Positions 856 through 15,681 of a DNA stretch of 64,000 bases are shown one piece after another. Below the pieces are notes generated by a model. The model was not told the DNA's origin and searched no databases. It saw only the letters and a list, made by a program, of their open reading frames with translations. Positions within the stretch are counted from its first letter, which is position 1; every line of letters starts with the position of its first letter. Origin of the DNA: Pycnococcus provasolii (Eukaryota > Chlorophyta > Pseudoscourfieldiophyceae > Pseudoscourfieldiales > Pycnococcaceae); contig OW568870.1 in the NCBI GenBank assembly GCA_938743325.2, forward strand, positions 248,001 through 312,000. Reading direction: 5' to 3'. A program made the position numbers and the translations under genes.

Positions 856-2886
856 CTAAGAGCAGTAATCCCAGGCTACGGACGGTGCACGAATGGCGCC
901 AAAGGGCACAGCTTTCTGAGGATCTGACGCGGGCGATGCAAGGCATGAGCGCGCGTCGACAAAGCATCGACTTATCCGTAAAGAAAGCTGTGAAGTAGGT
1001 GGGCAGAGCTGATCGCGATTCTGCAAAACTGGCGACGGCGACGACGACGATGCAGGAGAAGTAGAAGATCCTCCACCACGCATGCGCATCCGAGCAACCA
1101 TTTTTTCCGGACCATCAGGCCACAAATCGGGTGGGTCGCACAGGCATCCGTGTTGTGTCACGATGCGATCGCAAAGCGTTCCATTGTAGCCTTCGTTGCA
1201 GCTGCACGTAAACTTCTCTGAGTCCACGAGCGTGCCACGGCCATTGCAGATCGGATCGTCGGGTGATTGTTGTTGTTGTGGTGGTGGTGGTGGTGACGAT
1301 TTTTCCGTTCCAATCCACGGAGCGAAGTATGAGGCATCGTGCATCACCTCTCCCGCACTTAAGCTACCATCGTCGCAGCGCACAGCAGCAGCCAATTTTC
1401 CCGTCACCATCTCTCGGCAATGGTTGGTGCGCAGGCATCCTCCTGGCTCTTCGTCAGATACAAGGTAATCGTACGTATGTCCTCCCGTGAGAATACCAGC
1501 AAGTCCCAGCACTCGGTTGTTCGTATACGCAATCACAGGGCCACCGCTTGAGCCGCGGAACGCATCCACGCTAACCACGTGGCGCGTGGGTTTGCGCGGA
1601 GTCATGATGGCGGCGGAGGAGGAGTCAGTCGAAGACGAAAGTGCTGATGATTGAGCAATCGTAAGAACTCGAGACCACAAATTCACGACGTCGTTTGGCG
1701 ATGCGTTGCCGTTGTCGTCTCCTTGATTCTTGCGACTGCTGACGATGGGTGGCTCCGGATCGATGCGTGAAATCCAGCGACCGTCGAGGCCGTACTTGCG
1801 TGGCATTCCACTTGGATGTCCAATTGCAAGCAGTCTTAGCGATTGCAAGTTGCTATTAGTAGCACTAAAAACAGCTGCCGGATCAAAGATATCGAGCGGT
1901 GGCAGCATTGCGTCGTCGACGGTGGTGGGAAGCAAAGGCTTGTCTAGGCGGAGAACTGCATAATCAAGATGAATACCTGCGGAGGGAGATTTGCCACGCG
2001 CGTATGCCACCACCTCCTTGCATCGTGCAATTGGACCCATGTTCGCCTGTACTACACCCTCCTCCTCATCGTCGTCGTTCGAACGACTGACGTTCCCAGG
2101 TTGTTCGCCCCCACCACCATTTGTCTTCGTCGTCACCGCGTAGTTGCGAGCAAAGACGAGCCTGCCAGAGCTGCAAAATTGCGACGCGGCTGCCATCCCT
2201 CCATCGAGGCAGTGCGCAGCGGTTGCAACGAGCGATTCCGTAAGCAAAATGCCGCTGCAGAATGCACCCAACGGCTGGACCACCTGCTTTTGTTCGCTCT
2301 GACAGAATGGATACTTCTGTGATGATGATCCCATGACTGTGCGTGCACGAAGAACCTTGTAGGAGGATGTTTGAGGAGTCGGCTGCAGACGATCTGCCTC
2401 AAACAACGCCACGGTACGTTGTCCGATCGCCATCAATGATGCCACGACATTTGGTGCAAGTGCTTGTAATGATGCTGATGAGGCTGCTCCTGCTTGTGTT
2501 GGTAATGAATATGCTTTTACGACACGACGTGGACTATTTTTTTGTGATTGTGAACGCGAGCTGGATCCCCCCCTCCTCCCCGTGTCTTCTGCGGCTGACG
2601 ACGGTGTCGGCGGCGGCTCGACCGGTGGTGATGCTGGGTTGTTGTTGACGAGTGCGCTCATTTCAAACTCGTCAAGCAGGCTGAGAGGACCGTACGAAAC
2701 TAGCCGACGTCGTTCGTAGTATTCCTCCTTTTTTTCAGCAGTTGCTGCGCGTTTTGTGCGCGTTGTTGTCATCGTCAGTGGTAGTAGCAACAGCACCAAC
2801 GCGAACGTTATAGCGAGTACCAAAAACTCTCGCTTGGCTGCCGCTGTTGTAAGCCTGTTGTTGATGTTGATGTTGCTCATCGTCAT
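856..2886 (-). CDS. Trypsin-fold serine protease with EGF-like domain, membrane-anchored or secreted
   Basis: A 676-residue protein. A hydrophobic stretch at about residues 20-40 (FLVLAITFALVLLLLPL) acts as signal peptide or type II anchor. A disordered Ser/Pro-rich segment runs to ~residue 165, then a chymotrypsin-fold domain with a complete triad: His225 in TAAHC, Asp308 in LDYAVLRL, Ser447 in GSSGGPV. The serine-loop style is closer to the V8/glutamyl-endopeptidase branch than to digestive trypsin. After it come an EGF-like unit (CNGRG...CSCNEGYNGTLC) and a second Cys-rich tail. It probably acts outside the cell or in the secretory pathway; the substrate is not predictable. The start chosen is the first Met of the frame, directly upstream of the hydrophobic segment. 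Confidence 0.85.
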   Translation of the reverse strand: MTMSNININNRLTTAAAKREFLVLAITFALVLLLLPLTMTTTRTKRAATAEKKEEYYERRRLVSYGPLSLLDEFEMSALVNNNPASPPVEPPPTPSSAAEDTGRRGGSSSRSQSQKNSPRRVVKAYSLPTQAGAASSASLQALAPNVVASLMAIGQRTVALFEADRLQPTPQTSSYKVLRARTVMGSSSQKYPFCQSEQKQVVQPLGAFCSGILLTESLVATAAHCLDGGMAAASQFCSSGRLVFARNYAVTTKTNGGGGEQPGNVSRSNDDDEEEGVVQANMGPIARCKEVVAYARGKSPSAGIHLDYAVLRLDKPLLPTTVDDAMLPPLDIFDPAAVFSATNSNLQSLRLLAIGHPSGMPRKYGLDGRWISRIDPEPPIVSSRKNQGDDNGNASPNDVVNLWSRVLTIAQSSALSSSTDSSSAAIMTPRKPTRHVVSVDAFRGSSGGPVIAYTNNRVLGLAGILTGGHTYDYLVSDEEPGGCLRTNHCREMVTGKLAAAVRCDDGSLSAGEVMHDASYFAPWIGTEKSSPPPPPQQQQSPDDPICNGRGTLVDSEKFTCSCNEGYNGTLCDRIVTQHGCLCDPPDLWPDGPEKMVARMRMRGGGSSTSPASSSSPSPVLQNRDQLCPPTSQLSLRISRCFVDARSCLASPASDPQKAVPFGAIRAPSVAWDYCS

Positions 2887-3631
2887 CGATGCCAGCAGTT
2901 GCCAACAGCAAACTCCTTCTTCTCACTTGTAAACTCGCCAATCGCTCGCTCGTGAACCACGACGAAGAATGCATCGTCGTCTCGTCGTGTAAACCGTCAA
3001 CCACCAGGGAGGCAAGAAAGGGAAAGCAGCTGTCACTACTACTACTAAGTGATGAAAGAAAGCAAGAGTGAACATCATCATAGATACTACTTTGTAGAGT
3101 GATTGATGTAAAAGTGGTAGACATAGGTTGGTACATGGACATGGACAAATGGGTGAGGTGAGCGATGAGGAATATTTTCAACCACGCCTCGGGAGCTGTC
3201 AATTTCTCAATTCGGGTTTTGTGTGCAAGTTCTCCCGTTCTCACTTCTCCGACCGATGGGTAAAACCCGAAATCCCGACCGAACGGCCACGCTCTGCGAG
3301 TGCGATCCAACCCGGCCCAACCCCGAGTCCTGAGATGGCTCCTGTTTGAATCTGATAAGTTCTTAAGTTCTTCAACTACCAACGGCGAGGCGGTGCGCGT
3401 GTACTTTATAACTTTCCTGAGTGATTAAAGGTGATAAACCACAGAGATGGGTGTTGATTAATACTATGTATTAACTATGCGTCGATGTCACTTGTCAGTT
3501 GACATTCTTCAAATTTCTTTTTAAATTTTAAAAAATGGTTGAACTTTTTTATTGACACAAGAACACCGCTAATCGCCTTCACAGAATTGAGAAGGACCTT
3601 CGTTTAGTAGTAAGGATTCTGATCATGATTA
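2887..3631. other. Intergenic region, 745 nt
   Basis: This stretch lies between the 5' end of the protease gene and the 3' end of the U-box gene, both on the minus strand. Reading frames here are short or are shadows, and I see no conserved protein. The part from 3248 to 3345 is a copy of a dispersed repeat (separate entry). 3400-3600 is AT-rich and probably holds the 3' untranslated region of the U-box gene. Confidence 0.6.
3248..3345 (+). repeat. Dispersed ~100-nt repeat, copy 1
   Basis: The segment begins CCGACCGATG and ends CCCCGAGTCCTGA, and matches 10022-10130 in the same orientation with small indels. The two copies lie just outside the two ends of the U-box gene. Function unknown; it may be a short interspersed element or a deletion derivative of a larger one. 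Confidence 0.65.
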
Positions 3632-6600
3632 TTAGGTGGTGCGAGGACCAACGTTGTACACCCGCACATGCCCGGAGTACGTGCCGCCGCCGTCGTTACG
3701 AATAGCACCGATCGCGACGCTCGACCCGTCCGACGACAAGGACACCGAGGCGCCAGATAGATCGCCCTCCGCTTCTCCGTCCAGATCGGCACCCAGCTGC
3801 GTCCACCCCGAGCCCGCCCTGTACTCATACACGCGCACATGCCCTGAGTCCGTGCCGCCGCCGTCGTTCCAGTAAGCCCCGATCGCGACGCGCGACCCGT
3901 CCGACGACAAGGACACCGACCTGCCAGATTCATCGCCTGCGGCTTCTCCGTCCAGATCGGCGCCGAGCTGCGTCCACCCTGAGCCCGCCGCGTACTGATA
4001 GACGCGCACATGCCCGGAGTTCCTGCCGCCGCCGAAGTTGTAAGGAGCCCCGATCGCGACGCGCGACCCGTCCGACGACAAGGACACCGAGGTGCCAAAT
4101 CGATCGCCCTCCGCTTCTCCGTCCAGATCGGCGCCTAGCTGCGTCCACCCCGAGCTCGCCGTGTACTCGTACACGCGCACATGCCCGGAGTTCGAGCCGT
4201 TGCCACTGTTCCCAGTAGCACCGATCGCGACGCGTGACCCGTCCGATGACAAGGACACCGAGGCGCCAGAGTAATCGCCCGCCGCTTCTCCGTTCAGATC
4301 GGCGCCTAGCTGCGTCCACCCCGAGCCTGCCGCGTACTGATACACGCGCACATGCCCGGAGTCCGTGCCGCTGCCGTCGTTCCCACTAGCCCCGATCGCG
4401 ACGCGCGACCCGTCTGACGACAAGGACACCGAGGTGCCAGATCCATCGTACGCCGCTTCTCCGTCCAGATCGGCGCCTAGCTGCGTCCACCCGGAGCCCG
4501 CCGTGTACTCGTACACGCGCACGTGACCGGACCATGAGCCGTTGGATCGGTTAAAAGTAGAACCGATCGCGACGCGTGACCCGTCCGACGACAAGGACAC
4601 CGAGGTGCCAGAGTAATCGCCCGCTGCTTCTCCGTCCAGATCGGCGCCGAGCTGCGTCCACCCTGAGCCTGCCGCGTACTGATACACGCGCACATGCCCG
4701 GTCGTTCCGCCGTTATTTGAAGCCCCGATCGCGACGCGCGACCCGTCAGAAGACAAGGACACCGCCCTGCCAGATTCATCGTACGCCGCTTCTCCGTCCA
4801 GATCGGTGCCCACCTGAACGAAGAATGGTGGTGGAGGAGGAGAAGGAGGAGGAGGTGGTGACGGTGGAGGTGACGGTGGAGGAGGTGGTGGTGGAGGTGA
4901 CGGCGGCGGCGGCGGTGGTGATGGAAGAGCGGGCATAGACGTCGTTCCGAGATCGACGGTGGGCAAGTTGTCTCCCATCTGATTCGGAATGTCGCCAACA
5001 AAGTGGTCGTTTCCATATCCGAGTTGGCCTTGCCCACCTGATCCCCAGCACTTGACGCCTCCATTGTCGAGCAGGACGCACGTATGTTGAGAGCCAAGCG
5101 CAATCTGCACGGCTGTACGGCCTGTCCCTAGATCCACGATGGGCAAGTTGTCGCCGACTTCACCTGGATCGTCGCCGATGTTCATCCGGTTGCCGTATCC
5201 TAGCTGACCACTATCTCCTCTTCCCCAACATTTCACAGCACCGGTATCGAGCACTGCACACGTGTGATATTCACCCGCCGCGATCATCCTCGCGGTTCGA
5301 CCCGTGCCGAGAAGAACCACGTCGCGAGGTGGCGGTGCACTCAGCGAGTTGCGGTTGCCATACCCAAGTTGACCGTAGCCTCCGCTTCCCCAGCACTTGA
5401 CTGTGTTATCATCCAGCAATGCGCACGAATGGCCATTGCCTAGCGCAACTTGTTTCGCAGTGCGCCCGGTGCCCAGAGCTATGACAGGTAAGTTGTCGCC
5501 CATCTCGTCTGGATCATCTCCGATGGCATTTCCCCAGCACTTGAGCGAGGCATCGTCAAGAATTGCGCATGCGTAATAGTGATATCCCAGCGCGATGTGC
5601 TTGGCGGTGCGACCACTTCCAAGATCCACGCAAGGTAGGCGATCTCCCATTTCATTGGGACTATCGCCAAGATTGTTTCGATGTCCATAGCCAAGCTGGC
5701 CTCGATTGTTGGATCCCCAACACTTCAAGCACCCATCATCAAGCAAGGCACAGGAAAATTCAAAGCCTGCAACAACAAGCTTGGCTTTGCGTCCTGTACC
5801 GAGGTCAATATCAGGCGGACTCTCCCACACGTTATTTTTATTGCCATAACCGAGTCTACCGCTGGTTCCGTATCCGACGCATTTCACGACTCCGTGGGTT
5901 GATACAAAGCACACGTGACGTGAACTAGTAGAGATGTGAGCAACGACTGGTTCCGCGAAAACACGAAGATTGTTGCCCATTTCAGCTGACTCGTCTCCAA
6001 TAGTTCCTCTAATGGTAACTTTATACCCCCAGCACTTTGCACTTCCCTCGTCGAGCACTGCACATGTTCGTTGAAAATTAGCAGATAGAGATATCACGCG
6101 GTAAGGCCTTTGAGGCGGCGGAGACAGTGGCGGCGGTGGCGGGCTCGGAGGCGGCGGGTTCGGCGGCGGCGGGCTCGGCGGCGGGCTTGGTGGCGGGCTC
6201 GGCGGCGGGCTCGGCGGCGGCGGGCTCGGCGGCGGGCTCGGCGGCGGGCTCGGCGGCGGCGGGCTCGGCGGTGGGCTCGGCGGTGGGCTCGGCGGTGGGC
6301 TCGGCGGATTGCCGAGCGTCACCTTCACGGTCTTCACCGGAAGACTCGGAGACGTGGCGATTGGCGGATTGCCTGGAATGCCCGAGACGTGCAGGTCATA
6401 CGTATTTGTCGCGATGCCCGTGACGGTGACCGTTGCAACGTGGCGCGACGTTACCCATGCATGCAGGCGTCGTCGTCCACCCATTCCCCCAACAAACCCG
6501 GCATTTGATGGAGGATTTGACGACGGAGTGGATGACGGAGCCACGAATTGTGTTGTGGTTGTTGTGGTTGTCGTTGCCGGCGGAGGCGGTGGCGACTGCT

Positions 6601-9600
6601 TCGCGGGCGGTGCAGGAACATTTGTTTGAAGGGAACCCTTCGATCCCAGCGCCACGCACGGCGTTGTCAGCTTCGTGGGATAGGACTGCAGGATGTGACG
6701 ACGACTGCCGGCACCACCTCGTGACGAACCACCTGAATTCATGTTGCACCAGTACATCAGGTAAGACGACTTTGTCAACCAACCAGCCTCAGGCGGGTTC
6801 TGGCCAAGCGGCACCAAGGCGTACATGAGTGTCGCAGGCTGGTTCGTGTGAACCTCGAAGGTGACAGAGGTGGTCGTGAATGTCTTGACATAAACACCAG
6901 CATCAAGGTAGTCGAGCAGCGCAGGATTCGGCACGCCAGTCGGCGGTGGCGGTGGTGACGGCGGGCTCGGCGGCGGCGGGCTCGGCGGCGGACTCACCGT
7001 CGACGGCGGAGGCGGTGGTGCAAGGGTGCTAGGTGGCTCTCTGATCATCATGCCAGTAAGCGAGGTCAGTCCAGCCGCTTGCAGCTTCTGAAGAATAGAA
7101 GTCGTCTGCGTAAAGCCCAAGCTTGTTGACGCCTGGTTCACCGCCGACACCGTGTTCAGCTCCACCTTGTAGTCAACAACAGCATTCGTTGCGAGTAGAT
7201 GCCTCGCCTTACGAGTTTCGAGGTCAGTCACGCTGTTGATGATCACGTCAGTGCTTTGGATCGTGATTCCGCCCTGCGCCATCTGCGCCTTGACACCATC
7301 TTTGAAAGCCGACTTGGCAGCGTCGTTGAACGTCGCGGCCGTGTATCCCACGAGCATAATCTTGCTCTTCACGGCGTACCCAGCAGCCGGCGATTGCGGG
7401 GACGCCAGCGTCGTGGGCGGCGGTGGCGCCGGCGCCTGCGTCGTGGCAGGCCGCGGCAGCGGTGGAGGAGGAGGAGGAGGGGGAGGTGGTGGTGGAGAAG
7501 TAGAACGAGGAGGCGGCGGAGAAGGAGGAGGAGGAGGCGGAGGAGTAGATGGCCGTAGGAATGGTGGTAGGCTCGGTGGCGATGGTAGCGGTGCCGGTGA
7601 AGGAAGAGCCTGGCTCGGTGGTGGCGACGCTACCAACGTCACGGGCGGCGTCAATACCGTCAGCTTTGAGAGACTCGTCATGCCGGCACTGACGAGAGCC
7701 GTTTGCAATGTTGCAGCACCCGGCGCCGATAGTAGATAGCTGGCTGCGCTCGCGAGCTGCAAGTTGGCCACTGCCACCTTGTACGTGACGTTCGTGGTCG
7801 AGGCAAGAATACGACGACGAAGTACAAGACGAACACCTTCACCGCCAGTCTCTGAGGTGGGAGAAATATCCGTCACCGAGACGATCGTTACGGCATTCGG
7901 ATCCGTCGCAATGTCTCCGCTGTTAAGGTACTTGGCAATTCCGATTCGAAAGGGCATCTGTTTGTGCAGCAGAAATGTTGTTAGCGTATACCCCTCGAGG
8001 GAAACGGCAGATTGTACGAACACCTTAGCTGGTAGCGTTGACGGAGTCGTCGGCGATGGCGGCGGCGATGCCGCTATCGTCGATGTCGTGGCAGTCGTTG
8101 TAGTGGCTGGAGGCTGCTGCTGTGGTGGTGGTAAGATTAGTGGTGAGGGTGGAGGTAGCAGTATCGGCAAGGAAGGACCTCCGCCGCCGTTGCGATCATC
8201 ATTCGGGTTGATGACATCTCTCAGCAAGGTCAAGGTGGTGGCAAGGATCGCAGCAAGCATAATGATGCTTGCAATAACAGCGACGACGAGGATCTGACTT
8301 CTTCTCCGTCTTGAATGGTCGACGATATCCTCCTGCACTTCGCGGGCGTCGCCGGGCTGACGAACGGGTGCTATCTTCTCATTCGTCTCCACATCAACGT
8401 CCAACTGGAACATCTCGTTGTCATGGATTTGTGTCATGTCGGACTGCAGCTTGTTCATCATCTCAGACGGAAGGGGAGGTGCCGATGGCTGCGAATTCTC
8501 CTGCGCCGCCTCCACCGCTGACGAGATGCTCGTGGCTGTTGCAGAGCGATGACTCGTGGTCGTCGACGATCTGAATCTCTTGCTTGCGCGCATGGAAGCG
8601 GACGAGTGCTTCCGTTGCAGCTCGCGCCACTCGTTCGCCTGATTTTTGAGCGCGTAGTTCGGAATGAGCTTCGTAGACGACAGCTCCACGTTCGTCACGG
8701 GGTCGCGACGGTGGCCACGCGCGAACCACTCCTCGATGGCCGATCTCTCGTACGTCGTACCCGTCTCCGCGACGATGCACGGTTCCTCCATCAACTCGCC
8801 GGAGATGGGGCAGAAGAATGAACGTGGAAGCTCAAGCACGGACGAGCCGGACGAGCCGCTTCCGGTGCTTGCAGCACCGTCGTCGTCGTCGTCGTCGCCC
8901 GCACTTGCCGCTCGCCGTGCCTTCTCCTCCTCTTCGAGTGCGGCGATGCCCGCAATCACCTGCTCGAGCCAATACGCCTCGAGACGTTCCTTCTTTTCGC
9001 GCGCGTCTGCAAGCTCCACCTGTAGCTTGGCGCGGTCCTTGACGTCGAGCACAGCTGAGACGCCTTCGTCACGACTGGCTGACGCGGTCGTCGACGCCGC
9101 GCTTGTGTCGCGTTCGCGTCCGTCGAGTTGTTGCACTCTGCCGAGAAGCTCGACGAGAAGGCGCTTCACCTCCTCATTATCCTGCTGTCCTTGGTGGAAG
9201 CCGATATCCACCTGCCTTCTCAGTTGCGCCGTTTCGGCGAGCAGTTGACCGGTTTGCTCGAACTGCGCGTTGCGCAAGTCGGCGACGAGCTGCTTGACTT
9301 CGTCCGCTCGTTCGTCGCGACGTCTTCCGAGCGCCGCGAGCGGGAGCATGTCGAGCGCCATGGCGAGCTCTGTCGTCGCAGTTTTGAGGTTGTTGTGATG
9401 TCGCGTCGCAAGGACGACCGTGGACACGAGGCTCGCGTTGGCTGTCGCGTCGACGGTCTCTTTCGTTTTCTTGATTGCGTCGTGTATTGCGTCAATCGCG
9501 GCCCACGCGGCCGGCGTCAACGGCGAGGAGTCGTGGTCACCACGTTCCCGGGAGCTTGCATTACTCGCAGTGGTACTGATGTCGTCGTTGATGAGCTGCA

Positions 9601-9718
9601 GGATGTCAATCAACTTACGGACGACGCGCGCGAGCACGAGGCAGTCTCTCCTGTTCGCGCGCGCGCTTTCCGCACTGAGAGCGACGGCGTTCGCGACGGC
9701 GAGGATGTCCGTGAGCAT
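3632..9718 (-). CDS. Receptor-like membrane U-box E3 ligase: helical bundle, U-box, TM, paired SEA-like domains, RCC1 and FG-GAP propellers
   Basis: One uninterrupted 2028-residue frame. In order: an all-helical N-terminus (~1-190) resembling the four-helix MLKL-NTD/MCAfunc type; charged coiled coil (~215-290); U-box (~297-366; FFCPISGELMEEPC, then YERSAIEEW); tetra-Arg followed by one TM helix (~475-497). The Arg cluster on the N-side puts the U-box in the cytosol and the rest outside (type II). The outer part has two related ~120-residue domains (~564-691, ~778-894) separated by Pro-rich linkers, a further beta-type domain (~930-1020), a PPSPPP stalk (~1138-1202), seven RCC1-type units (CAVLD...KCWG, ~1206-1594), another Pro linker, and seven FG-GAP-like units (VSLSSDGSRVAIGA, ~1636-2022). 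A U-box recruits E2 to ubiquitylate targets; the outer propellers suggest ligand or matrix sensing. I know of no family with this full order. Domain calls are strong; the receptor role is inference. Confidence 0.85.
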   Translation of the reverse strand: MLTDILAVANAVALSAESARANRRDCLVLARVVRKLIDILQLINDDISTTASNASSRERGDHDSSPLTPAAWAAIDAIHDAIKKTKETVDATANASLVSTVVLATRHHNNLKTATTELAMALDMLPLAALGRRRDERADEVKQLVADLRNAQFEQTGQLLAETAQLRRQVDIGFHQGQQDNEEVKRLLVELLGRVQQLDGRERDTSAASTTASASRDEGVSAVLDVKDRAKLQVELADAREKKERLEAYWLEQVIAGIAALEEEEKARRAASAGDDDDDDGAASTGSGSSGSSVLELPRSFFCPISGELMEEPCIVAETGTTYERSAIEEWFARGHRRDPVTNVELSSTKLIPNYALKNQANEWRELQRKHSSASMRASKRFRSSTTTSHRSATATSISSAVEAAQENSQPSAPPLPSEMMNKLQSDMTQIHDNEMFQLDVDVETNEKIAPVRQPGDAREVQEDIVDHSRRRRSQILVVAVIASIIMLAAILATTLTLLRDVINPNDDRNGGGGPSLPILLPPPSPLILPPPQQQPPATTTTATTSTIAASPPPSPTTPSTLPAKVFVQSAVSLEGYTLTTFLLHKQMPFRIGIAKYLNSGDIATDPNAVTIVSVTDISPTSETGGEGVRLVLRRRILASTTNVTYKVAVANLQLASAASYLLSAPGAATLQTALVSAGMTSLSKLTVLTPPVTLVASPPPSQALPSPAPLPSPPSLPPFLRPSTPPPPPPPSPPPPRSTSPPPPPPPPPPPPLPRPATTQAPAPPPPTTLASPQSPAAGYAVKSKIMLVGYTAATFNDAAKSAFKDGVKAQMAQGGITIQSTDVIINSVTDLETRKARHLLATNAVVDYKVELNTVSAVNQASTSLGFTQTTSILQKLQAAGLTSLTGMMIREPPSTLAPPPPPSTVSPPPSPPPPSPPSPPPPPTGVPNPALLDYLDAGVYVKTFTTTSVTFEVHTNQPATLMYALVPLGQNPPEAGWLTKSSYLMYWCNMNSGGSSRGGAGSRRHILQSYPTKLTTPCVALGSKGSLQTNVPAPPAKQSPPPPPATTTTTTTTQFVAPSSTPSSNPPSNAGFVGGMGGRRRLHAWVTSRHVATVTVTGIATNTYDLHVSGIPGNPPIATSPSLPVKTVKVTLGNPPSPPPSPPPSPPPSPPPPSPPPSPPPSPPPPSPPPSPPPSPPPSPPPPNPPPPSPPPPPLSPPPQRPYRVISLSANFQRTCAVLDEGSAKCWGYKVTIRGTIGDESAEMGNNLRVFAEPVVAHISTSSRHVCFVSTHGVVKCVGYGTSGRLGYGNKNNVWESPPDIDLGTGRKAKLVVAGFEFSCALLDDGCLKCWGSNNRGQLGYGHRNNLGDSPNEMGDRLPCVDLGSGRTAKHIALGYHYYACAILDDASLKCWGNAIGDDPDEMGDNLPVIALGTGRTAKQVALGNGHSCALLDDNTVKCWGSGGYGQLGYGNRNSLSAPPPRDVVLLGTGRTARMIAAGEYHTCAVLDTGAVKCWGRGDSGQLGYGNRMNIGDDPGEVGDNLPIVDLGTGRTAVQIALGSQHTCVLLDNGGVKCWGSGGQGQLGYGNDHFVGDIPNQMGDNLPTVDLGTTSMPALPSPPPPPPSPPPPPPPPSPPPSPPPPPSPPPPPFFVQVGTDLDGEAAYDESGRAVSLSSDGSRVAIGASNNGGTTGHVRVYQYAAGSGWTQLGADLDGEAAGDYSGTSVSLSSDGSRVAIGSTFNRSNGSWSGHVRVYEYTAGSGWTQLGADLDGEAAYDGSGTSVSLSSDGSRVAIGASGNDGSGTDSGHVRVYQYAAGSGWTQLGADLNGEAAGDYSGASVSLSSDGSRVAIGATGNSGNGSNSGHVRVYEYTASSGWTQLGADLDGEAEGDRFGTSVSLSSDGSRVAIGAPYNFGGGRNSGHVRVYQYAAGSGWTQLGADLDGEAAGDESGRSVSLSSDGSRVAIGAYWNDGGGTDSGHVRVYEYRAGSGWTQLGADLDGEAEGDLSGASVSLSSDGSSVAIGAIRNDGGGTYSGHVRVYNVGPRTT
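3640..4815 (-). repeat. Seven tandem FG-GAP-coding repeats, ~165 nt each
   Basis: Seven units encode GADLDGEA..D.SG.SVSLSSDGSRVAIGA....SGHVRVY. Protein and DNA are highly similar between units. Units 1, 3 and 5 end in YQYAAGSGW, while 2, 4 and 6 end in YEY followed by T or R, so the array has a two-unit period. Seven units fit one closed integrin-alpha-type propeller. Confidence 0.9.
4936..6098 (-). repeat. Seven RCC1-type repeats
   Basis: Seven copies of a C-x-x-x-D-x-G-x-x-K-C-W-G core at ~50-65-residue spacing, most followed by GQLGYGN. The paired Cys in each unit suggests disulfides, which fits an extracytoplasmic position. These repeats are more diverged from each other than the FG-GAP units. 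Confidence 0.85.
6110..6305 (-). repeat. PPSPPP-type stalk coding repeat
   Basis: A tandem (CCGCCGAGCCCG)-type array encodes Ser-Pro(n) repeats like those of hydroxyproline-rich wall glycoproteins (pherophorin/extensin style) of green algae. Similar shorter Pro tracts occur at about 7390-7600, 6935-7030 and 4812-4930 in the same gene. Confidence 0.85.
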
Positions 9719-11470: not shown

Positions 11471-13030
11471 ATGGCGACGCCGACGCCGAGTAACTTGCTC
11501 AGGGACAAGATGGCGACGTCGCAGCCTTACACCGTTGAAGATGTTGAAAATGCCATGTCCGAAGAAGGTAATAACAGCAAGAAAACGTCCAACGTCCAAA
11601 ATGGTCGTCCACCTTGGTGGCGGTGGTGGTGCTATCCACTCATAGCTCTGATGATGGTCGTCGTTGTCTTGGTCGTGATCATTGGGTCCGTATGGTACGT
11701 CAACGCGGGTCAGGCTGTGCCAGCCATTCGGATTGACTTCAACAACAACAGCTCCGCGAAGTCAGAGGCTACTGCTGCGATGGACAACTCCGCATGGGCA
11801 TTTGTGCTCGCCAAGTACACGTACCCCAACCAGATCTCGCCGACTAATAACGTGTCGTACGTCGCTGTCGACTACGCTCGTTTGGGTATGGACAGAGGCA
11901 AGCTCGACGAATACATTGATCAGCTGAAGAATCTGAATTCTTCCGCAATTTCGTCAATGTCTCGCGATGAAGCGCTCGCACTCTACATCAACGCATACAA
12001 CGCTTTTGCGATTAGTAAAGTTCTCAGCAGCGGTGACAACAAGATTGCATCGATTCGCGATCTCGGAACTTTCCTTTCTCCGGTGTGGAGGCAGCCAGCC
12101 GGCGAAATCGCGGGGCAAACGTTGAGCTTGGACCAGATTGAACATGGCATCATTCGTGCGAATTGGCCAGACGAGCCGCGCATTCACGCTGCTGTGAACT
12201 GCGCGAGCGTAAGCTGCCCGGATTTGCGCCAGGAACCATACACGGGCAAAGATCTGCAGAATCAACTCGACGACCAAACCTGTCTGTGGCTCTCCAACGC
12301 TGGCAAGGGCGTTGCTGTGACGGCGGACGGCGGGCTTGCTGTTTCGAAACTCTTTGATTGGTACGGTGGCGACTTCTCGAGGCAAGCAGGAGGATCCGTG
12401 GTAGCATGGATTGTCGAGACGATGAACAAATGCCAATCGAATCTGCTTTCGATGGCGGCGGACGTCGAGATCAAGACGTACCTTCCGTACGACTGGAATC
12501 TGAATAATGCGGTTTCATCGACGACGACGACGACCACCACGGTCGCGCCTACGACGACAACGACGACGACGACCACCACGGTCGCGCCTACGACGACGAC
12601 GACGACGACGACGACCACGGTCGCGCCTACGACCACCTCGACGACGACCACCACGGTCGCATCTACGACGACGACGACGACGACGACCACGGTCGCGCCT
12701 ACGACCACCTCGACGACGACCACCACGGTCGCGCCTACGACGACGACGACGACGACGACCACGACCACGACGGTCGCGCCTACGACCACCTCGACGACGA
12801 CCACCACGGTCGCGCCTACGACGACGACGACGACGACCACGACCACAACGGTCGCGCCTACGACCACCTCGACGACGACCACGACGGTCGCGCCTACGAC
12901 CAACTCGACGACCACCACCAGGGTAGCGCCGCCGCCGCCGCCGCCTTCGACGACGACCACGACGGTCGCGCCTACGACCAACTCGACGAACACCACCACG
13001 GTAACGCCTCCGCCTCCGCCGCCGCCGCCT

Positions 13031-13062
<32 letters not shown>

Positions 13063-13072
13063 AACACAGTAA
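11471..13072 (+). CDS. DUF547 type II membrane protein with Thr-rich mucin-like tail
   Basis: A 533-residue protein. A short cytoplasmic N-terminus is followed by WWRWWCYPLIALMM and a TM helix (~53-76), suggesting type II topology. The body (~100-335) is a DUF547 domain: LALYINAYNAFAISKVL, DQIEHGIIRANW, HAAVNCASVSCPDLR and KLFDWYGGDF are its signature blocks. In plants DUF547 proteins are widespread and of unknown biochemistry. From ~352 to the end the protein is only (T)n-VAP-(T)n and Pro tracts, a tail expected to be heavily O-glycosylated at the cell surface. The start is the ATG at 11471; a second in-frame Met is at residue 14. The gene converges on the GT29-like gene. Confidence 0.85.
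12520..13065 (+). repeat. Coding minisatellite of the Thr-rich tail
   Basis: ACG/ACC-rich units, each ending GGTCGCGCCT (VAP), recur about a dozen times with variable Thr run lengths. The frame is kept throughout. Length variation between strains is expected. Confidence 0.85.
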
Positions 13073-14334: not shown

Positions 14335-14676
14335 CCTTGCACACCGAGAGGCCGCGAGCCTTGATGAGCGAGGCCTTCATCAGGAAAGAGCATAGTACTA
14401 GGTACACGACTTTCACGTGAGGTCATTGGACCCACCGCTGTTGCATCACGTGCATTAAGGTGGTACTTCCTACCAGCAAGAATACGACCCGAACGCGAAC
14501 CTGAAAGCTGGTTGCAAGCTCTTTGCAAGAAACACTCGCGGTTTCTCACTCGCGGCCGGTGTGCAAGGGACGGGGTCTTTTTTCCTGGCCGAGGTGGTAC
14601 GACTATTTGGTACCACCCTACGTTTCGGAACGCGCACCTCGGTGGATGGCGCCGCGCGCTGTGGAAGGTGTGGATA
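14335..14676. other. Divergent intergenic region
   Basis: 342 nt separate the GT29-like gene (-) and the WD40 gene (+). Both promoters must lie here. The frame of the WD40 gene stays open upstream to about 14512, but I see no conserved sequence there, so the ATG at 14677 is preferred. Confidence 0.5.
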
Positions 14677-15681
14677 ATGGCGTCGCATCAGGGGCACGGC
14701 GGGACGCATTTCACGTCGTGGGCGCAGTGCCTGGTATTGGCACGCAACACAACGGGCGGCGCGGCGGCAGCAGTGGCGTTCTCGCCAGACTCGTCGCACG
14801 TCGCCGCGGGAACGGCGGGCGGCGCGCTGCGGGTGATGCGGGCGGCGACGCTGGAGGTGACGATGGAAGTGGCGGCGACGCACGACGGCGAGGCGATCCA
14901 CGACGTGTGCTTCGCAGGCAGCGCTCAGGTGGTGGTGACGGGCGGCGGCGACGGGCGCGCGTGTGCGTTTGAGACGAGGGGTGGAGGGCGGGTGCTTGAG
15001 TGCGTGCGCGGCGGCGGCGGCGAGGAGGAGGACGACGACGAACGCTACGCGTGCCTCGCGGTAGCGTTCGGGACCACTGGTGGGAAGCCAGTGCTCGCGG
15101 CGGCGTACGCCGACGGAGTCGCGGTGCTGTGGGGGTGGGACGGCGTGGTGCTGCGAGAGCTGCGTGGGCACGGCGGAGCGGCGCTGGGCGTGGATCTCTC
15201 GCGCGACGGCGCGTTGGTGGCTACCACCTCCTCGGACGGCACTGCACGCGTGTGGCGCGCCGCCGACGGCGCGTGCGCCGCGGTGCTGCGCGTAGGCGGC
15301 GGTGGCGTGGAGGCGCGCCGCGTCCGCTTCGGTGCCGTGCGTACGCACGGGCTGGTGCTAGTGGGGTGTTCAGACGGATCGACGCGAGCGTACCGCGTGC
15401 CGCCGGCGGGTGACGCCGCGGAGGTGGCGCCGCTCTTCGAATGCGGCGGTCACAGCGGACCGGTGTGCGACGTCGCGGTGGGGGAGAACGGGGAGGTGCT
15501 CGCCACCGGCTCCTCCGACAAGACCGTCCGTCTCTGGACGCTGCGCGACGGGGAACTGTGCCGCACGCTACCCGCCGGCGGGCCCGTGGCGGCGCTCGCG
15601 TTTGCCTCGCAAGGCTCGCCACGCCTCCTCTCCGCCACCGCGAAGGGTACCCTCAAGCTGTGGGGCATCGTGCCCCGGTAG
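14677..15681 (+). CDS. WD40-repeat protein
   Basis: From the ATG at 14677 the protein has 334 residues, enough for one seven-bladed propeller and little else. WD-type units are visible as VAFSPDSSHVAAGTAGG, VVTGGGDGRACAF, AAYADGVAVLWGW, GVDLSRDGALVATTSSDGTARVW, CDVAVGENGEVLATGSSDKTVRLW and a closing GTLKLWG. No extra domain identifies a subfamily, so the partner complex is unknown. Codon use is extremely GC-rich. The gene converges on the G3BP-like gene. Confidence 0.8.
   Translation: MASHQGHGGTHFTSWAQCLVLARNTTGGAAAAVAFSPDSSHVAAGTAGGALRVMRAATLEVTMEVAATHDGEAIHDVCFAGSAQVVVTGGGDGRACAFETRGGGRVLECVRGGGGEEEDDDERYACLAVAFGTTGGKPVLAAAYADGVAVLWGWDGVVLRELRGHGGAALGVDLSRDGALVATTSSDGTARVWRAADGACAAVLRVGGGGVEARRVRFGAVRTHGLVLVGCSDGSTRAYRVPPAGDAAEVAPLFECGGHSGPVCDVAVGENGEVLATGSSDKTVRLWTLRDGELCRTLPAGGPVAALAFASQGSPRLLSATAKGTLKLWGIVPR

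Follow-up and report, generated by a model that had tools for sequence, protein, structure and literature searches.

The 64,000-nucleotide stretch of Pycnococcus provasolii contig OW568870.1 analysed here (assembly GCA_938743325.2, positions 248,001 to 312,000, forward strand; hereafter the window) carries on its minus strand, at 3632-9718, a single open reading frame of 2028 codons that runs from ATG to stop without internal stop codons, as a preliminary description made from the letters alone had stated. Its translation combines, in this order, a predicted helical N-domain, a U-box, one strongly hydrophobic segment, two SEA/ferredoxin-like domains, a further module, RCC1-type repeats and FG-GAP-type repeats, with proline-rich stalks between the later parts (Table 1). 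The presence of the U-box and both repeat types in one frame, also proposed in that description, was confirmed by Pfam domain search, all of them scoring over the curated cut-offs. Of 40 overlapping windows compared for codon usage, 27 support the frame, among them all ten over residues 1-525; the one at residues 501-575, directly past the putative transmembrane (TM) segment, is not among the supporting ones. The explanation that we favour, to which we give about an even chance, is that the gene encodes a single-pass type II U-box ligase of the membrane, mosaic in make-up, whose extensive outer part bears propellers that would bind ligands or partners.

By its domain content, the protein belongs to the U-box family. 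The Pfam match (E=3.4e-17) reached 62.8 bits relative to a curated cut-off of 21.4, a score far enough over the threshold to dismiss a false U-box, and the top PDB sequence match was "U-box domain-containing protein 12" (E=4.6e-17), further matches being to "RING-type E3 ubiquitin transferase", "armadillo repeat containing protein" and then CHIP. The stretch at residues ~475-498 is the sole strong hydrophobic segment, its best 19-residue Kyte-Doolittle mean being 2.94 and that of the next separate stretch 1.37, and it is preceded on its N side by RRRR, in agreement with the Arg-flanked TM helix described earlier.

A U-box search of the whole genome (32.3 Mb, 46 contigs) returned 17 places, and all 17 frames were read disregarding introns, with TM segments called at a 19-residue hydropathy of at least 1.9; six frames were truncated on the N side and two on the C side where the retrieved sequence ended, and the short frame L044, missed by the first-Met rule, had shown no hydrophobic segment in an earlier reading. 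This cut-off was reached by six frames (L003, L004, L005, L006, L074 and the gene under study), but the stretch in L003 was judged a probable intron or read-through and removed from the count, so that a convincing TM segment is found in 5 of 17, L047 being borderline at 1.89. The expectation that U-box E3 ligases are normally soluble thus fails in this genome. L004 (contig C3), L006 (C28), L074 (C2) and the borderline L047 (C27) hold at least one hydrophobic segment each, L004 and L074 being multi-segment frames. L005, at 1216-2964 (-) of its piece on C36, displays a start that by eye resembles a signal peptide, an EGF match barely over cut-off, a TM segment, an acidic stretch and a U-box, and looks like a type I mirror image of the 2028-residue protein. 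L041 (C13) and L042 (C37) combine RCC1 repeats with a C-terminal U-box and have no TM call. At the other 16 U-box places no FG-GAP units were seen in frame, most long frames being read in part. The same survey included a frame in which a Dynamin_N GTPase domain comes after the U-box (L045:1556-4000 (+), C15), a leucine-rich-repeat U-box frame (L008:1480-2925 (-), C42) and a U-box-WD40 frame (L003:820-2727 (+), C37).

Past the hydrophobic segment, two duplicated beta-type domains had been proposed. Their duplication stands, the two being 31% identical to each other, and the second is confidently modelled with a beta-alpha-beta-beta-alpha-beta fold, that is, as SEA/ferredoxin-like (predicted local distance difference test (pLDDT) 88.3, predicted template modelling score 0.83). 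Matches were found at 11 genome places for domain 1 and at 15 for domain 2, two within the gene itself in each case, the C3 copy of domain 2 being 99% identical. Module 3, absent from the earlier domain list, has no Pfam match and one other place in the genome, also on C3 (97%). The RCC1 part (RCC1_2, E=4.2e-48) finds UVR8, HERC1/2 and RCC1 in the PDB, and the seven units previously described were recovered by a C-X9-C pair in each, followed by WG in six and by VG in one. Such Cys pairs number zero in L041 and L042, and seven in the proline-stalk frame L071. Likewise, seven SLSSDG and seven GHVRVY motifs bear out seven FG-GAP-type units. Kinship to integrins, suggested by the name of the repeat, was rejected, the matched family being FG-GAP_2 (E=5.7e-26; integrin families were not separately searched); among 14 control genomes this family was matched in Synechococcus elongatus only.

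Sidedness was approached through the placement of homologous modules in other genes of the same genome, reading for the SEA family the loci L036-L039 from 9 and 13 other, overlapping, matched places. The C3 gene comprises an upstream frame that starts like a signal peptide (probably joined by an intron), a block shared with the gene under study, a hydrophobic segment far downstream (2.0) and a long tail; since its copy of the block follows the signal-peptide-like frame and precedes the hydrophobic segment, it should lie outside in this type I-looking paralogue. L037 and L039 show a signal-peptide-like start, a SEA-like domain and then a TM segment (2.78 and 2.43, respectively), and L072 a TM segment (2.34) followed by FG-GAP_2 repeats. 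In L038 a hydrophobic segment (2.11) comes ahead of the SEA-like domain; L038 and L072 both look type II. Jointly, this placement, the Cys pairs of the RCC1 units and the RRRR on the N side favour a type II protein with N side and U-box in and repeats out, and the N-in/C-out order of the preliminary description thereby gains support from related genes. Across L036-L039, a SFYG(I/V/L)-type motif recurs immediately ahead of the proline stalks.

The outer part has many relatives. The RCC1 part matched at least 95 genome places (104 of 223 candidates scored, and many of the low-scoring ones may be distant) and the FG-GAP part 73, own copies included in both. The block in common with C3, which contains SEA-like domain 2 and module 3, aligns over 1156 columns at 95.8% identity, and across all of its 384 aligned codons the ratio of nonsynonymous (Ka) to synonymous (Ks) divergence is 0.39. 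SEA-like domain 2 has a Ka of 0.0038 (1 change) and a Ks of 0.060 (5 changes), which agrees with constraint. In composition the gene resembles a mosaic whose stalk-linked outer modules come from a pool spread over the genome, and the near-identical C3 block would be a recent case of receptor outer modules being swapped.

Several observations weigh against a settled type II receptor. The 15 residues on the N side of the TM segment carry a net charge of 0, against -2 on the C side, which amounts to a modest positive-inside bias, and L038 shows no charge difference across its hydrophobic segment. Module 3 differs little from its C3 copy, with 7 changes giving a Ka of 0.0154 and 3 giving a Ks of 0.0168, and constraint is not evident. 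The protein searches yielded no orthologue with the full domain order, and one near-identical relative, P0001 (371 residues; three member sequences from two contigs, longest 6286), identical at 325 of 335 aligned positions (97%) to residues 28-361. Past the U-box, P0001 continues as an out-of-frame reading of the RCC1 part (best match at window 5571-5485) and, by coordinates, is without ~3.07 kb of our sequence, comprising the TM segment, the SEA-like domains and module 3. Absence of the TM helix from homologues, named beforehand as an outcome that would speak against the proposal, is therefore seen in part, in a relative that diverges right after the U-box. This arrangement leaves the link between U-box and TM segment unconfirmed outside this genome. 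A rearranged allele, an assembly error or an aberrant transcript could account for P0001; an ordinary splice product was rejected, no GT/AG being present at the join on our reference. P0001 does indicate that the N-domain and U-box are retained elsewhere.

Among other explanations, the one that survives best, although fairly unlikely, is a recent unstable chimera, in which shuffling at repeat-rich stalks joined U-box, TM segment and outer modules in this strain and yielded a full-length protein without settled function. The near-identical block common to C3, the different arrangement in P0001 and the neutral look of module 3 are all in line with it, as is the third-position GC content, which varies by part from 0.67-0.85 in the N-domain/U-box windows to 0.39-0.57 in the RCC1 windows. 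On the contrary, all 2028 codons remain open, the frame fits codon usage throughout residues 1-525, and SEA-like domain 2 appears constrained.

Somewhat less likely is that splicing, internal promoters or early termination produce two proteins, a soluble one with N-domain and U-box and a separate surface protein. P0001, read as an N-domain/U-box protein ending soon past the U-box, resembles the first of these, and the genome has introns as well as RCC1-U-box frames lacking a TM call. Nonetheless, the frame runs from U-box to TM segment with neither a stop nor a shift, the P0001 join has no splice-site signature on our reference, and a scan limited to strong donors found none with an in-frame partner across the TM segment; weak splice sites are possible, which counts with the points against a single type II product.

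An improbable variant keeps the topology and places the protein in the endoplasmic reticulum or Golgi, where it would serve as a quality-control ligase and use its propellers and stalks to check or bind secretory cargo in the lumen. All the topology evidence treats lumen and outside alike, and the multi-segment frames L004 and L074 recall, by analogy, ligases of the endoplasmic reticulum; long multi-module proline stalks, on the contrary, look like those of surface proteins.

The N-domain has no second copy found in the genome, and its earlier description as helical is matched by a model made of helices throughout, though at low confidence (mean pLDDT 64.4). A structure search of the PDB with this poor model gave no significant match, and no Pfam match to the N-terminal model of plant U-box (PUB) ligases appeared at E up to 10. 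That this domain is an MLKL/HeLo-like four-helix bundle, making the protein a membrane-bound cell-death switch controlled by U-box and outer sensor, is highly improbable: the all-helical model and a weak MLKL_N match at residues 4-128 (E=0.0066) agree with it, but that match is sub-threshold (16.4 bits, the cut-off being 27), the model is poor, and a helical N-domain is also a feature of plant PUBs.

The favoured type II ligase resembles plant PUB ligases in its nearest solved U-boxes by sequence and in the predicted helical domain ahead of the U-box, and differs from them in having a TM segment and an outer part, with no ARM repeats in the Pfam scan of the whole protein. As in the L005 frame, one TM segment connects what is probably an outer part with a U-box, although L005 has type I order, an EGF-like match and no propellers; with the FG-GAP_2/RCC1_2 proline-stalk proteins of the same genome the ligase shares related outer modules on such stalks. 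PA-TM-RING E3s are reported to be type I proteins that carry a signal peptide, a PA domain and a RING, and RNF43/ZNRF3, whose surface level is set by R-spondin, offer the precedent of an outer domain coupled to an inner ligase (PMC7291719). Our protein would likewise have an outer recognition part, one TM segment and an inner E2-recruiting domain, given the predicted sidedness, but with a U-box instead of a RING, in reverse order, and with outer propellers instead of a PA domain; at E<=0.1 the Pfam scan of the 2028 residues contained neither a RING family nor a PA domain. In CRINKLY4 the Cys residues of the outer repeats are reported to lie in C(X~10)CWG motifs and probably to form disulphides (PMC4617170), and the seven-unit RCC1-like propeller with Cys pairs near CWG has its counterpart here, with pairs in 7/7 units. 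CRINKLY4 differs by its inner kinase, type I order and TNFR-like region, where our protein would have a U-box inside and SEA-like and FG-GAP modules outside; no kinase domain was found in its Pfam scan. These comparisons place it outside the PA-TM-RING ligases, the CRINKLY4 kinases and the PUB-ARM ligases, though it may work like the first two.

In the proposed arrangement, the helical N-domain and PUB-like U-box would face the cytosol, where the U-box, having recruited an E2, would ubiquitylate partner receptors or targets close to the membrane. On the outer side, the two SEA/ferredoxin-like domains and module 3 on their proline stalks would be followed by the RCC1-type propeller, probably disulphide-braced, and the FG-GAP-type one, and propellers and stalks would bind ligands or adjacent proteins of the surface, by which the ligase would be clustered, held or turned over. 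A receptor coupling outside binding to ubiquitylation, as originally suggested, is plausible and partly supported. Receptor-like transmembrane E3s that use RING domains are already known, and no transmembrane U-box receptor is described in the titles or abstract openings of the open-licence literature searched. A U-box counterpart with CRINKLY4-like and FG-GAP propellers outside would mean that a direct route from an external signal to ubiquitin had evolved once more, using another ligase domain. More tentatively, and with distinctly less than an even chance, this lineage may use U-box ligases as surface receptors in both orientations, type II with two propellers (this gene) and type I with an EGF-like part (on C36), fed by shuffled stalk-linked modules and wiring outer recognition directly to inner ubiquitylation.

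Table 1. Features of the 2028-codon frame and its 3' flank, in window coordinates (aa, residues of the translation; nt, nucleotides of the frame).
Feature	Position	Strand	Basis
Whole frame, 2028 aa plus stop	3632..9718	-	frame list, translation
Helical N-domain, aa 1-215	9074..9718	-	low-confidence all-helix model
U-box, aa 298-369	8612..8827	-	Pfam; best PDB sequence match
RRRR ahead of membrane segment, aa 469-472	8303..8314	-	sequence
Putative membrane segment, aa 475-498	8225..8296	-	hydropathy 2.94
SEA/ferredoxin-like domain 1, aa 562-697	7628..8035	-	31% identity to domain 2
Proline-rich stalk, aa 698-777	7388..7627	-	sequence
SEA/ferredoxin-like domain 2, aa 778-898	7025..7387	-	structure model, pLDDT 88.3
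Block ~96% DNA-identical to contig C3, frame nt 2273-3428	6291..7446	-	alignment
Module 3, unclassified, aa 925-1137	6308..6946	-	one further genome copy, on C3, 97%
SPPPSPPP stalk, aa 1139-1204	6107..6304	-	sequence
RCC1-type propeller of seven Cys-paired units, aa 1205-1590	4949..6106	-	Pfam, PDB matches, Cys pairs
Proline-rich stalk, aa 1599-1631	4826..4924	-	sequence
FG-GAP_2 repeats, seven units, aa 1632-2023	3650..4825	-	Pfam, motif counts
AATAAA 3' of stop codon, candidate polyadenylation signal	3548..3553	-	read from sequence

Elsewhere in the window, the adjoining frame at 856-2886 (-) contains a trypsin-like peptidase domain together with an EGF match slightly under cut-off. A DUF547 frame at 11471-13072 (+) has a hydrophobic stretch on its N side and a long threonine/proline-rich tail, and a frame with WD40 repeats lies at 14512-15681 (+).

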